Shown here: one piece after another, positions 11,065 through 22,589 of the stretch | Position numbering within the stretch: position 1 is the first letter of the stretch | Layout of the letters: each line of letters starts with the position of its first letter | Notes under the pieces: model-generated | Told to the model about the DNA's origin: nothing | Database searches by the model: none | Seen by the model: only the letters and a program-made list of their open reading frames with translations | From: Acidobacteriota bacterium | GTDB taxonomy: Bacteria; Acidobacteriota; Thermoanaerobaculia; Gp7-AA8 | Length of the DNA stretch: 64,000 nt | Assembly: GCA_021781455.1 (NCBI GenBank) | Contig: JAJXWV010000030.1 | Coordinates: forward strand, 62,001 to 126,000 | Direction of reading: 5' to 3' | Made by a program: the position numbers and the translations under genes

Positions 11065-11115
11065 CGCATCTCTTCTTGAGAAGACGTTTCTCCTACCCGC
11101 TACCCGCTACCCGCT
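11045..11115. repeat. GGGTAGC heptamer hairpin, copy 1 (overlaps DUF72 stop)
   Basis: Three GGGTAGC units at 11045-11066 and the complementary TACCCGC units at 11094-11115 surround a spacer (GCATCTCTTCTTGAGAAGACG). The TAG stop of the DUF72 gene is inside the third unit. The right arm lies 21 bp before the selB start. Confidence 0.92.
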
Positions 11116-11135
11116 CGCAAGGTATCCTTCGCCCG

Positions 11136-13025
11136 ATGTCCAGAAAGAAACGCGTGGTCGGCACGGCAGGCCACATCGATCACGGGAAAACGGCGCTGGT
11201 GCGAGCGCTGACCGGAATCGACACGGACCGGCTTCCCGAGGAAAAGCGCCGCGGCATCACCATCGACCTCGGCTTCGCCAGCTGGTTCACCGACGATTAC
11301 CAGATCGGCTTCATCGACGTTCCCGGGCACGAGCGATTCGTCAAGAACATGCTGGCGGGCGTCGGCGGAATCGACAGCGCGCTGCTGGTCGTGGCCGCGG
11401 ACGAATCGGTGAAGCCGCAGACGCGCGAGCATTTCGCCATCTGCCGCCTTCTGGGCATTCGCACGGGCGTCGTGGCGATGACCAAGAGCGATCTCGTCGA
11501 TCCGGACATCATCGAGCTGGTCCGGCTGGAGATCGAGGAACTGGTGGCGGGCAGCTTTCTGGAAAACAAGCCGGTCATCCCGGTCAGCAGCACGACCAGA
11601 TCGGGCCTGGACGAGTTGAAGCGCGCCATCCTCGAATCAGTTGCGTCTGTGGGCGATCGCGACGCCACCACCCGCGTGTTCCGGCTGCCCATCGATCGCG
11701 TCTTCACGATGAAGGGATTCGGCTCCGTGATCACCGGCACGACTTACTCGGGAAGCGTGCGGGTCGAGGACGAGGTGGAAGTGCTGCCGGGCGGCAAGCG
11801 CAGCCGTGCCCGCGGCGTGCAGGTGCATGGCCAGAGCCGCGAGGAGGCGTCGGCCGGCGAGCGTACGTCGATGAATCTTGCCGACATCCCGCTCGACGAG
11901 CTCCATCGCGGACAGCAGGTGGTCGCACCCGGAACGCTGCGGCCTTCGCAGGTCATCACCGCAAGGCTCGAGCTGCTGGCAGACGCCAGGCCGCTGAAAG
12001 AGCAGACGCGGATCCGGTTTCACCATCTCGCCTCCGAGCTGCTGGGCAGCATCCGTTTCGTCGACGACACGCCGGGCGAGCTCGCTCCGGGCCACAGCGC
12101 GTTCGTGCAGATCCGGCTCGAGTCGCCTGTGGTTGCGGTGACGGGTGATCGCTTCGTGATCCGGCGCTACTCGCCGGCCCTCACCATCGGCGGCGGCGCG
12201 ATCATGGACGCGCACGTGCCGAAGCTGAGCCGCGGCACGCGCACGGAGATCCTCGAAACGCTCGCCGATGGCACGCTGCCTCAGCGAGTCGAGCTCATGG
12301 CCAAACTGGCCGGCCTGCGGGGACTGACGATCGAGGAAGTGCAGGCCCGGACGGGCATCCGGGTCTCCGCGCTCCGATCACAGCTCGGCAGCGTCCAGCA
12401 TCTCGCGAAGGTGAGCGAAGGACGCTGGCTGCACGCGGACGTGCTCAGCGACTTCCGCCGACGCTCCATCGAGTTCCTCGACCGCTTCTTCAAGACGAAC
12501 AAGATGGCGGTGAACGTGCCGAAGGGAGAGTTTGTCCAGAAGCTGCTACCGGCGGGTGCCGACGCGGCTCTCGTCAGCTTTTTGCTCTCCGATCTCGGCC
12601 GCGAGAAGATCGTCGCCGTGCAGGCGGACTCTCTGGACATTCCGGGCCGCTCGAAGACGCTCGGCGGTGCCGAGGGCGAACTGGCGCGCGCCATCGAGCA
12701 GCGATTCGCCGTGGCCGGGCTTCAGCCGCCGCCGGTGTCCGAGCTGATCAACACCATCCCGCAGAAGCCGAAGGTCATCGAAGGCGTGGTGAGCTTCCTG
12801 GTCAAACAGGGCACGCTGGCGCGGCTGGCCGACGGGGTGTACGTGCACCGCACCGCGCTCGATGCGGCGCGCGCAAAGATCGCCGCGCATCGAGGGCAGA
12901 CGATCGATGTCGGCGAGTTCAAGGAGCTCTTCGGCCTGTCGCGCAAAGTCGCCATTCCTCTGCTGGAATGGTTCGATCGCGAAGGCGTCACCAGACGCGT
13001 CGGCGACACGCGCCAGGTGCTGTAG
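11136..13025 (+). CDS. selB: Selenocysteine-specific elongation factor SelB
   Basis: 629 residues from ATG 11136. SelB delivers Sec-tRNA(Sec) to UGA codons marked by a SECIS hairpin. The GTPase domain is complete: GHIDHGKT at 12-19, DVPGHERF near 61 and TKSD near 115. EF-Tu-like beta-barrel domains follow ([45 protein letters not shown], typical of SelB). The C-terminal ~250 residues contain winged-helix-like repeats, ending in [13 protein letters not shown], as in SelB SECIS-binding domains. selA, selC and selD are not in the window. A candidate client is the selenoprotein at 21772-22344. Confidence 0.95.
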
Positions 13026-13141: not shown

Positions 13142-14044
13142 CTAATGTCCCGCGTACCAGTCGTAGCCGCGCTCGGCCCAGTAGTCGGCTGGGCGCACGT
13201 CGGTGTAGCGGATCGTGCCGACGCGCTTGATGTTCTTGACGCCGTACTTGACCGGAATGGCGAGGCGCAGCGGGGCGCCGTGCTGCCACGACAGCGGCTG
13301 GCCGTCGATCTCGTACGCGAGCAGCGTCTGCGGGTGCAGCGCGCTCTGCATGTCGAGGCCGACGTAGTAGCCGCGATCGGGTGTCTCCATCGAGACGTAG
13401 CGGACGAGCCGGTCCGGGCGCTCGAGGTCAGGCGCGCTGCCATCGCGCGTCGGAGGCGGGTACTTCGCCATGACGTCCGCGAGGCGCGCGCCCGTCCACT
13501 TCACGATGTAGCTCCATCCTTCGATGCAGCGGAACTCCGTGATCATCTCGCGGCGTGGGAAGCTGCGGATCTCGTCGAGCGTCAGCACGGCGCGAGAAGC
13601 CGCTCCCTCGATGCGCAGCCGCCAGTCGGCATTGTCATAGCTCGCCGAAAGGCCCAGCCCGCCGTTGATGCGTGCAGCCGTGATCTGGTCCGGCCGGAAT
13701 GAGGGACTCATCCGCGACGGCCGGAAGTACGCCTCCGCGACTTTCTCGTTGAGCTGCAGCATGCGCCGGAAGGGCCAGGCCAGCCCGTCGGTGCGCGGCC
13801 GTCCCCGCAGCCAGCTCCAGCCGGCGACACCTGCCACCGCCGCGACTCCGGCCGTCACGAACCCGCGACGGCTCAGTCGGCGCAGCTCCCGGTCGACGGC
13901 TGCGTCGTTTGCGATCTCGCGTTCGCGCTCGAGATGCGCTTCGTCCGCCTCGTGGACCTCGGACGGCGGTTCCGGCGTCTCGAACGGCTCGCTCTCCGGA
14001 GCGACCGCGGCGACTTCATCCGGAGTCTTTCCCGGATCAGTCAC
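13142..14044 (-). CDS. Tat-exported molybdopterin-dependent oxidoreductase (sulfite oxidase/MsrP fold)
   Basis: 300 residues from GTG 14044. An unusually long acidic N-terminus (about 50 residues) precedes a twin-arginine signal (LSRRGFVTAGVAAVAGVAGW, RR at 59-60). The sulfite-oxidase fold shows the Mo-ligand cysteine in FRCIEGW (Cys173), then GYYVGLDMQSALHPQTLLAYE and HGAPLRLAIPVKYGVKNIKR. MsrP-like enzymes repair methionine sulfoxide in the periplasm, but the exact substrate cannot be read here. It overlaps the upstream cytochrome b gene by 8 bp, so the pair is one operon: an exported Mo enzyme and its membrane electron donor. Confidence 0.9.
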   Translation of the reverse strand: MTDPGKTPDEVAAVAPESEPFETPEPPSEVHEADEAHLEREREIANDAAVDRELRRLSRRGFVTAGVAAVAGVAGWSWLRGRPRTDGLAWPFRRMLQLNEKVAEAYFRPSRMSPSFRPDQITAARINGGLGLSASYDNADWRLRIEGAASRAVLTLDEIRSFPRREMITEFRCIEGWSYIVKWTGARLADVMAKYPPPTRDGSAPDLERPDRLVRYVSMETPDRGYYVGLDMQSALHPQTLLAYEIDGQPLSWQHGAPLRLAIPVKYGVKNIKRVGTIRYTDVRPADYWAERGYDWYAGH

Positions 14045-14717
14045 CCGTCACCTCGGAAGGCGGCGCATCGTGGAGCTCGTAGCCGATGACCATGGACCGG
14101 AAGTTGTTCCACCCGGCGCGAGCCACCTGCGCGACGTGAACGAGAAAAAAGAGCAGATAGCCGATCGTGATCCAGAAGTGGAAGAAGCGCGCCATCGGAT
14201 AGCCGCCGAGGAGCGCGTCGAGCCAGGCGAACTGGACGGGCTTGTAGATGGCCAGGCCGGTCACGAGCGATCCGAATCCCATCAGGACAATGCCGGTATA
14301 CGCGAACTGCTGGGCGCCGTTGAACTTCTGCGGAGGCGGCGGCTCGCGGCGCAGGTGCTGGTCGTGCAGCACGGTCAGCAGCGCATGCCGGAACGACGCG
14401 CGATTCGGCACGAGCAGGCGCCATTCACCCGAAAAGAGCGTGTACGCGACGTAGAGCAGCCCGTTGATGGCGAAGAACCACATCACGAAAAAGTGCAGCG
14501 CCATCCCTTCGGCGAGGCGGTAGCTCAGGTGGAGCTCGTTCCAGGTCGGCTGCGCGAAGTTCATCGGAAGGAGCTGGTGCTTCCCGACGCCGACGCGATA
14601 AACGGCGTTCGCCCAGTAGATCATCGCGCCGCTCCAGATCATCAGAGCGAGCAGCGGAAAGTTGATCCAGTGAAACCACCGGATCGCGAGCGGATGCTTC
14701 TTCTCCAGCTTCTTCAT
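14037..14717 (-). CDS. Cytochrome b561-type membrane subunit
   Basis: 226 residues from ATG 14717 (MKKLEKKHPLA); the open frame upstream is an improbable Arg/Cys-rich stretch. About four transmembrane segments are visible, with histidines placed as in di-heme b561/hydrogenase-type cytochromes: RWFHWINFPLLALMIWSG, GMALHFFVMWFFAINGLLY, QQFAYTGIVLMGFGSLVTG and FHFWITIGYLLFFLVHVAQV. It would pass quinol electrons to the exported molybdoenzyme encoded immediately downstream (8-bp overlap). This is the same role as MsrQ for MsrP, but from a different cytochrome family. Confidence 0.87.
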   Translation of the reverse strand: MKKLEKKHPLAIRWFHWINFPLLALMIWSGAMIYWANAVYRVGVGKHQLLPMNFAQPTWNELHLSYRLAEGMALHFFVMWFFAINGLLYVAYTLFSGEWRLLVPNRASFRHALLTVLHDQHLRREPPPPQKFNGAQQFAYTGIVLMGFGSLVTGLAIYKPVQFAWLDALLGGYPMARFFHFWITIGYLLFFLVHVAQVARAGWNNFRSMVIGYELHDAPPSEVTGD

Positions 14718-14869
14718 GAACGGATGCCAGGCGCACGCAGCGGCGGCGCTGCAGGGAACCTGCAAAAGCGATTGGGAATGATACTCCGCTCGTTTGCGAC
14801 GCCGTCGCAAACCGCTCCCGCACGCTACCCGCTCGTGATGGCACCCGACGCGCAAAGGTCCTCGTCCTG

Positions 14870-21771: not shown

Positions 21772-22344
21772 TCAGGCCGAGTGCTTCCACACCGTGGATT
21801 TCAGGGTCCACACGCTGTCGGGATAGCGCTGCTCGAGCTCCTTCGCGACGCTCTGGAGCTCGCCGGCATCGTGGCTGCGGCTATACCGGCTCACGTTCCG
21901 CCAGTAGAGCGCCTCGGGCGCGGCCTTGCTCTTCGGATAGCTCTCCACCACGTGCGCGTACCGCCGCTCCGCCTCCTCCCAGCGCTTGTGCACCACGTCG
22001 AGCCGCGCCAGCCCCATTTCCAACTGGGCACGAAAGTCGTCCTTCGGAAGGTAGCCCTCTATGCGCCAGCGCTCCTCGCCGTCGGAGTCCATCACCAGCA
22101 CCGTCGGCGTCCACACCGCGTCGAAGCGCTTGAACCAGACCGGGTGCTCCTTGATGTGCGCCTCGACCGGGATGAAGTTCTGCTCGATGAAGCTGGCCAC
22201 CCCATTGTCGCCGTACGACTCGGCTTCCAGCCGAGCGCACCCGCCTCACGCGGGAGCGGCACTGAAGTCGAGCAGGATCGGCCTGCCCGTGCTCTTCGCC
22301 TGTCCGAGTGCCGCATTGACGTCGCGATTCCATGCCACTGCCAT
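21772..22344 (-). CDS. Thioredoxin-fold selenoprotein (in-frame TGA = Sec33) with C-terminal TPR-like region
   Basis: Read from ATG 22344, which has a perfect AGGAGGT seven bases upstream, the frame gives MAVAWNRDVNAALGQAKSTG, then RPILLDFSAAPA, a TGA (22246-22248), GGCARLEAESYGDNG, and continues as the 142-residue open frame to a TGA at 21772. With TGA as selenocysteine the product is 190 residues with UxxC (Sec33-Gly-Gly-Cys36) at the thioredoxin active site. The fold is supported by the preceding beta-strand (PILLDFSA), the cis-Pro block VWTPTVLVMD and GYLPKDDFRAQL. A TPR-like tail follows (WEEAERRYAHVVESYPKSKA). A SECIS-like hairpin follows the TGA, and SelB is encoded 9 kb away. It is likely a cytosolic thiol/selenol oxidoreductase, as no signal peptide is seen. 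The alternative is a nonsense mutation, which the conserved Cys and intact frame argue against. Confidence 0.87.
22218..22236 (-). promoter_or_regulatory. Bacterial SECIS (bSECIS) hairpin
   Basis: On the mRNA, CUCGGCU pairs perfectly with AGCCGAG (7 bp, plus an outer G-U pair) around a GGA triloop. The apical loop starts 17 nt after the UGA and has G in its first two positions. This fits the published bSECIS model (loop 3-14 nt, a G in the first two positions, 16-37 nt from UGA to loop). Confidence 0.8.
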
Positions 22345-22351
22345 AGTTGTG

Positions 22352-22358
22352 ACCTCCT
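22352..22358 (-). promoter_or_regulatory. Strong ribosome binding site of the selenoprotein gene
   Basis: AGGAGGT on the minus strand, seven bases before ATG 22344. It decides the start upstream of the TGA: translation must begin there, which makes the in-frame TGA unavoidable. Confidence 0.85.
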
Positions 22359-22423: not shown

Positions 22424-22589
22424 CTAGTGGCCTGTATTGGTTGAATTGGTACCAGTGGCGCCGGGATCGGCGACGTGAGCGAGTCGCGCCGACGCAGGCA
22501 TAGCGGTGACTATGCTGAGGAGGCGCAACGAAGCTCACGGCGTCGAGACCAAGCCAAGTGGTACCAATTCAGCCGATACAGGCCACTAG
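22424..22589. mobile_element. 166-bp MITE-like element with 31-bp terminal inverted repeats
   Basis: The left end (22424-22454, starting CTAGTGGCCTGTATTGG) and right end (22559-22589, inverted) match at 29 of 31 positions. The interior is also largely self-complementary (GCATAG...CTATGC; GTGAGC...GCTCAC), so the whole element can fold into one long hairpin. It abuts the L,D-transpeptidase stop codon (TAG, 22590-22592), with CTAG repeated at the junction. There is no coding capacity. Confidence 0.82.

Follow-up and report, generated by a model that had tools for sequence, protein, structure and literature searches.

Among described selenoproteins, the nearest by domain to the protein reported here is the 'thiol:disulfide interchange protein' selenoprotein (PF13098, UxxC; WP_011366075.1; PMC13188914), and a like-named 'Trx-like 2' was placed under cd02953 in the GOS survey (PMC2398784). 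The former shares with our protein the Thioredoxin_2 domain, a DsbD-gamma-like fold and the UxxC site, but it is defined by the thioredoxin domain alone, without mention of a TPR tail, and the comparison is one of descriptions only. The selenoprotein thioredoxin (PF00085, UxxC) is likewise a cytosolic thioredoxin fold but has no TPR tail. In VPGUxxT proteins (NF041382, NF041383), Sec occupies the same place in the active site of a comparable thioredoxin domain; however, their motif is UxxT and not UxxC, they are 287-349 residues long, and no TPR tail was matched in them. TsoB (NF045694), a rhodanese/DsbD fusion-like selenoprotein, has a C-terminal DsbD-like domain, but it is a 572-residue fusion with a different Sec motif, UxxxxU. 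Finally, the chaperedoxins CnoX/YbbN are cytosolic and also have a thioredoxin domain followed by TPR, whereas they contain Cys or Ser instead of Sec and their tail is twice as long. None of the 119 selenoprotein families listed in a 2026 catalogue is a thioredoxin-TPR protein, and this catalogue leaves Acidobacteriota unmentioned. In deep-Sep, the single acidobacterium that was examined yielded no new family.

The window, that is, the whole stretch of 64,000 nucleotides analysed here, belongs to an acidobacterial genome of 4.88 Mb in 90 contigs. A first-pass annotation of this DNA had proposed a hidden selenoprotein gene on the minus strand, starting from an AGGAGGT motif and ATG 22344 with a frame open through a TGA, and all these elements are present (22358-22352 for the motif, 21774-21772 for the stop codon; Table 1). 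The frame that begins at ATG 22344 gives RPILLDFSAAPA-TGA-GGCARLEAES and remains open as far as this stop. The only internal TGA is codon 33 (22248-22246), and when it is translated as U the protein is MAVAWNRDVNAALGQAKSTGRPILLDFSAAPA-U-GGC-ARLEAES, continuing to residue 190, with no signal sequence that could be read in it. The mechanical ORF call, as had been anticipated, starts at GTG 22200 and gives 142 residues, so that the active site is left out.

Table 1. Positions of the selenoprotein gene, its parts and selB in the window.
Feature	Positions	Strand	Description	Basis
Selenoprotein gene	21772..22344	-	190 codons + TGA stop; Sec = codon 33	
Shine-Dalgarno AGGAGGT	22352..22358	-	7 nt 5' of ATG 22344	read from sequence
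Predicted Sec-encoding TGA	22246..22248	-	codon 33; first position of UGGC active site	
bSECIS hairpin	22219..22235	-	stem 22235-22229 / 22225-22219, loop GGA 22228-22226	
Thioredoxin-fold domain	22021..22344	-	residues 1-108; Sec33, Cys36, TP80 at cis-Pro position	Pfam PF13098
TPR-like tail	21775..22020	-	residues 109-190; five helices	models, YbgF match
selB, selenocysteine-specific elongation factor	11076-13025	+	TIGR00475 370 bits, above curated cut-off	ORF

Looking at homologues, we found about 49 distinct ones, from several phyla, with a TGA at exactly codon 33. A search of 60 relatives gave, apart from the gene in the window, five homologues whose TGA is at this codon (32-50% identity). 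A profile built from the homologues found in these relatives was then run on 396 Acidobacteriota genomes and recovered 25 full-length members, of which 24 carry a single TGA and the other (G351) has Cys. Scanning GTDB contigs added members in Acidobacteriota, Gemmatimonadota, a planctomycete, Schekmanbacteria and bins labelled Deltaproteobacteria; it was the alignment query of these contigs that matched, whereas single-protein queries of genome contigs, viral contigs and plasmids gave no match, nor did a search of PHROGs with the selenoprotein. Four full-length homologues have Cys in place of the TGA: L042 (CKGC), L078 (CGGC), and L074 and L075 (both CEGS). The position thus holds either TGA or Cys in the homologues checked, in agreement with the earlier proposal that the TGA occupies the first position of a CxxC motif and stands for Sec; Cys36 and P80 are conserved along with Sec33. 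One homologue (L007:1501-2061, in genome G003) has an in-frame TAG at codon 67 besides the Sec TGA in an otherwise well conserved gene, which could reflect a fault in the assembly, decay of the gene or a second recoding event.

The start of standard gene calling at GTG 22200 would be the right one if the TGA were a true stop or a sequencing error, leaving only the 142-residue ORF or a pseudogene, a reading that we consider practically untenable. The TGA lies at the same codon in the approximately 49 homologues, the upstream half and the start are conserved, with protein conservation beginning at ATG 22344, and Cys is found at the site in genomes that lack the Sec machinery. Moreover, nearly all close pairs have a dN/dS ratio of about 0.1-0.2 both before and after the TGA, and a ratio so far below 1 excludes a pseudogene as well as a simple stop. 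Purifying selection thus acts on the parts before and after the TGA and maintains the whole product.

The hairpin that follows the TGA, CTCGGCT-GGA-AGCCGAG, has a 7-bp stem starting 10 nt after the TGA and a loop 17 nt after the UGA. When 48 nt were folded, the MFE was -22.3 kcal/mol (z = -3.1) and none of 200 shuffles folded as well. The published bSECIS rules ask for a loop of 3-9 nt with a G in its first two positions, a stem of 4-16 bp, a distance of 16-37 nt between loop and UGA, and an MFE of at most -7.5, and the hairpin falls within all these limits, as the first-pass annotation had stated. As evidence, however, this agreement is weak and was set aside, since the loose rules (stem of 4 bp or more, spacing, loop G) are satisfied after 69% of the TGAs of the window. 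A stem of 7 perfect base pairs closing a GGA loop is found after only one of the 1598 TGAs, which is this one. No Rfam entry was found at the hairpin at gathering thresholds.

We then considered the hairpin across the family. In a core alignment of 37 sequences, 91.7% of the stem cells are paired, and sliding one arm lowers this to 52% or less. Covariation is slight, most pairs being nearly invariant: U-A replaces the outer C-G pair in two sequences, a compensatory change, and U-G replaces it in two others. Codon choice is the stronger evidence for the hairpin. Indeed, within it Arg is encoded by CGG in 37 of 37 sequences (22% elsewhere in the same genes), Leu by CTG in 36 of 37 (37% elsewhere), and Ala by GCT in 30 of 33 (8%) and by GCC in 36 of 36 (33%), while codons flanking the hairpin on either side have little or no such bias. 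Pooled over 308 pairs, pS falls to 0.29 in the segment that runs from the TGA to the end of the hairpin, with 0.66 upstream of this segment and 0.63 downstream. The hairpin region is therefore constrained at the DNA level beyond what the protein needs. The conservation of the TGA, of the frame on both sides and of the hairpin in about 49 distinct homologues means that their combination is not due to chance.

The core stem is absent from the distant members (S/A-P-G-U-L-G-C and kin; L009, L037-L044 and L072). These have another predicted hairpin, UGGAUGC-CGUGAC-GUAUCCA, placed further 3', with 96.8% of its cells paired (at most 52% in the slid controls) and changes on both sides of two pairs. 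In all four Cys members there is no stable hairpin at the site (MFE from -4.0 to -7.6). One protein family thus appears to use two unrelated RNA signals, the position being shifted in the distant clade. Taken together, the core stem, the distant-clade stem and the lack of a hairpin in the Cys members indicate that the structure follows the TGA, and that the RNA in turn sets the amino acids next to the active site on its C-terminal side (RLEAE or MDAVTYP).

The machinery for Sec insertion is complete in the host. selB lies 8.7 kb from the selenoprotein gene, close to the 9 kb given by the earlier reading, and its start is probably an ATG at about 11136. selA (472.6 bits), a tRNA-Sec with the anticodon UCA (71 bits) and selD are encoded elsewhere in the genome, and selD itself contains an in-frame TGA. 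By eye, from ORF translations, selB is adjoined at 13142-14855 by a molybdopterin-dependent oxidoreductase resembling MsrP and its cytochrome-b-like membrane partner. selA, selD and a tRNA-Sec candidate were found in all 18 family or order relatives searched, some of the tRNA candidates being weak (that of G006 is below the gathering score) and the selA of G007 being a fragment at a contig end.

In the phylum sample, selA is present in 252 of the 396 genomes (a base rate of 64%) and in 24 of the 24 TGA carriers (hypergeometric P = 1.3e-5, a value that ignores the kinship of the genomes). Six further TGA genomes were reached through other loci, and four of them have both selA and selB. In G426 selB is present and selA was not detected, and in G429 selA is present with no SelB above the cut-off. 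Neither is without the machinery altogether, and the gaps are likely to be contigs missing from draft bins. The concern that TGA forms might occur in genomes lacking selA and selB was thus not borne out among the carriers checked. Among the genomes with a Cys form, G351, G421 and G422 gave no selA match and no SelB above the cut-off, whereas G420 encodes a Cys form (L074, in which the resolving Cys is replaced by Ser) despite having selA and selB.

Since the read-through frame is open, the UGA might in principle be read as another residue, Trp or Cys, by a near-cognate tRNA or a reassigned code. We judge this highly improbable, because UGA also terminates the same gene, the genome holds the complete Sec machinery together with a SelD that has its own in-frame TGA, and the conserved hairpin is tied to the TGA and not to the Cys forms. 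Altogether, the genomic data point to an in-frame UGA that almost certainly encodes selenocysteine. By this comparative evidence, codon 33 is read as Sec by the host SelA, SelB, SelD and tRNA-Sec, directed by the hairpin 10 nt downstream.

As for the protein, an AlphaFold model built from 29 sequences has a pLDDT of 95.6 and a pTM of 0.90. Residues 1-108 superpose on DsbD-gamma (1vrs_E) with a Z score of 15.6 and an rmsd of 1.8 over 106 residues, and DsbH also matches. In the model, a strand (residues 23-28) is followed by a helix (residues 34-43) that is opened by Sec33, and the W-T-P80-T sequence precedes the strand 81-85, which is the usual place of the cis-Pro. The predicted structure therefore has both hallmarks of a thioredoxin fold, a redox pair at the N-terminus of helix 1 and a Pro at the cis-Pro position. 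Pfam Thioredoxin_2 (PF13098) matches with 48.5 bits (cut-off 27) and is found in 29 of the 29 members, while the match of the selenoprotein to the classical thioredoxin domain (PF00085) has an E value of 0.02. The thioredoxin domain announced by the first-pass annotation is thus recovered, but it is of the DsbD-gamma/DsbH type and not a classical thioredoxin.

The VIA-align alignment covered mainly residues 1-114, and the tail was therefore modelled and searched separately. Modelled alone, residues 108-190 form five helices (pLDDT 94.5), and the best match is the TPR domain of YbgF (2xev_A; TMq 0.87, rmsd 1.6, Foldseek E 0.01). With such an E value, the match indicates a shared arrangement and is not a proof of descent. 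Pfam TPR_6 is matched in 13 of the 29 members.

No NCBIfam model covers this thioredoxin-TPR family, and those for VPGUxxT, TsoB, DsbD and BamD match weakly, far below their cut-offs. The VPGUxxT models align with residues 3-60 (E 5e-9), and membership was not accepted with 36.3 bits for a cut-off of 275 (NF041382) and 27.3 bits for a cut-off of 350 (NF041383). Similarly, the TsoB model matches residues 2-108 (E 1.6e-9) with 36.4 bits for a cut-off of 805, and it was rejected. Literature searches for a thioredoxin-TPR selenoprotein found none. The architecture is therefore distinct within the UxxC thioredoxin-like selenoproteins when compared with NCBIfam and the 2026 catalogue, and with the PF13098 entry by its description; to this extent the earlier suggestion that the family, with its TPR-like tail, is undescribed holds.

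This selenoprotein is widespread in soil bacteria and is missed by standard gene calling. As the latter cuts the protein after the active site, its database entries are likely to be headless TPR/thioredoxin fragments. A coherent family is thereby added to the bacterial selenoproteome in Acidobacteriota and Gemmatimonadota, phyla that are common in soil and that the searched papers on selenoproteins scarcely mention. With Cys members to set beside those with Sec, and with two alternative SECIS hairpins, this one family offers direct material for asking why Sec is kept and how an RNA signal constrains the protein in which it lies.

What the protein does can be approached from its architecture. 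It is very probably a cytosolic selenoprotein in which Sec33 is inserted by the host machinery under the control of the hairpin, and in which a UxxC thioredoxin domain of the DsbD-gamma type and a TPR domain make up what would be a reductase with a docking tail. The UxxC site would lie at the start of helix 1 of the thioredoxin fold, followed by the small TPR domain. The Sec33-Cys36 pair may reduce a disulfide, a sulfenic acid or a selenenyl-sulfide bond in a client, Cys36 would resolve the mixed selenosulfide, and the TPR tail may dock the client or a partner protein. Clustering of about 45 loci brought out no neighbour that is conserved, and nothing there points to a client; a YfcE-like phosphoesterase adjoins the gene in two sister genomes. 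The lack of a signal peptide together with that of a conserved neighbour suggests that the protein is cytosolic and acts alone, and it would probably be re-reduced by the general thiol system. We thus infer that it is most likely a cytosolic selenol-disulfide oxidoreductase, with the TPR tail serving to dock the partner.

A narrower role is possible, which we hold only tentatively, as a reductase dedicated to a single partner enzyme (a peroxiredoxin, a methionine sulfoxide reductase or a reductase complex, for instance), in which the TPR would be the module that confers specificity. The nearest fold, DsbD-gamma, is an electron-relay domain, and UxxC thioredoxins suit high-turnover reduction (PMC13188914), but a conserved neighbour, often expected of a dedicated partner, is what the loci do not have. 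It is somewhat less likely still that the protein is a Sec-dependent chaperedoxin like CnoX/YbbN, whose TPR tail would hold damaged proteins while the thioredoxin domain protects or reduces their cysteines. The domain order is the same, the Foldseek matches include E. coli YbbN, the selenoprotein is also cytosolic, without a signal peptide, and in Caulobacter CnoX a TPR tail is joined to a CxxC oxidoreductase (PMC8129009). Nevertheless, the tail is one five-helix unit of about 82 residues and not the two five-helix subdomains of CnoX (PMC8129009), and the superposition over the whole length is poor (rmsd 11-13). There is also no convincing profile match, since hhalign, run against a single sequence, gave probabilities of 20% over the thioredoxin part and 0.2% over the tail. 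Membership of the CnoX family was not accepted, while a CnoX-like action is still a live rival by architecture. The docking reductase is the reading that we retain. The broadest statement, to which we give slightly less than an even chance, would be that of a previously undescribed and widespread soil family, acting as a redox chaperone or reductase that depends on Sec and is guided by its TPR, and having two or more unrelated clade-specific SECIS hairpins that shaped the residues after the active site.

The Cys form kept by G420 weighs against the main reading, and so does the patchy distribution of the gene, which is present in 5 of 18 genomes of the same family and was not found in a genome of the same genus that is 87% complete. 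The window protein is 55-65% identical to Terriglobia homologues (L050-L056) and 45-49% identical to those of its own family, and in the tree it is placed among the Terriglobia homologues (support 100/100 for the group of 11 rows). This closeness, together with the absence of the gene from most family members, could be explained by horizontal transfer or by loss of paralogues. At 22424-22589, 80 nt upstream of the selenoprotein ATG, lies a 166-bp palindromic MITE-like element with 57-nt arms that are 79% complementary and CTAG at both ends. The genome contains about 34 full or partial copies, many of them at contig ends, and the 15 or so full-length copies are 96-100% identical, which indicates a recent spread of this element.
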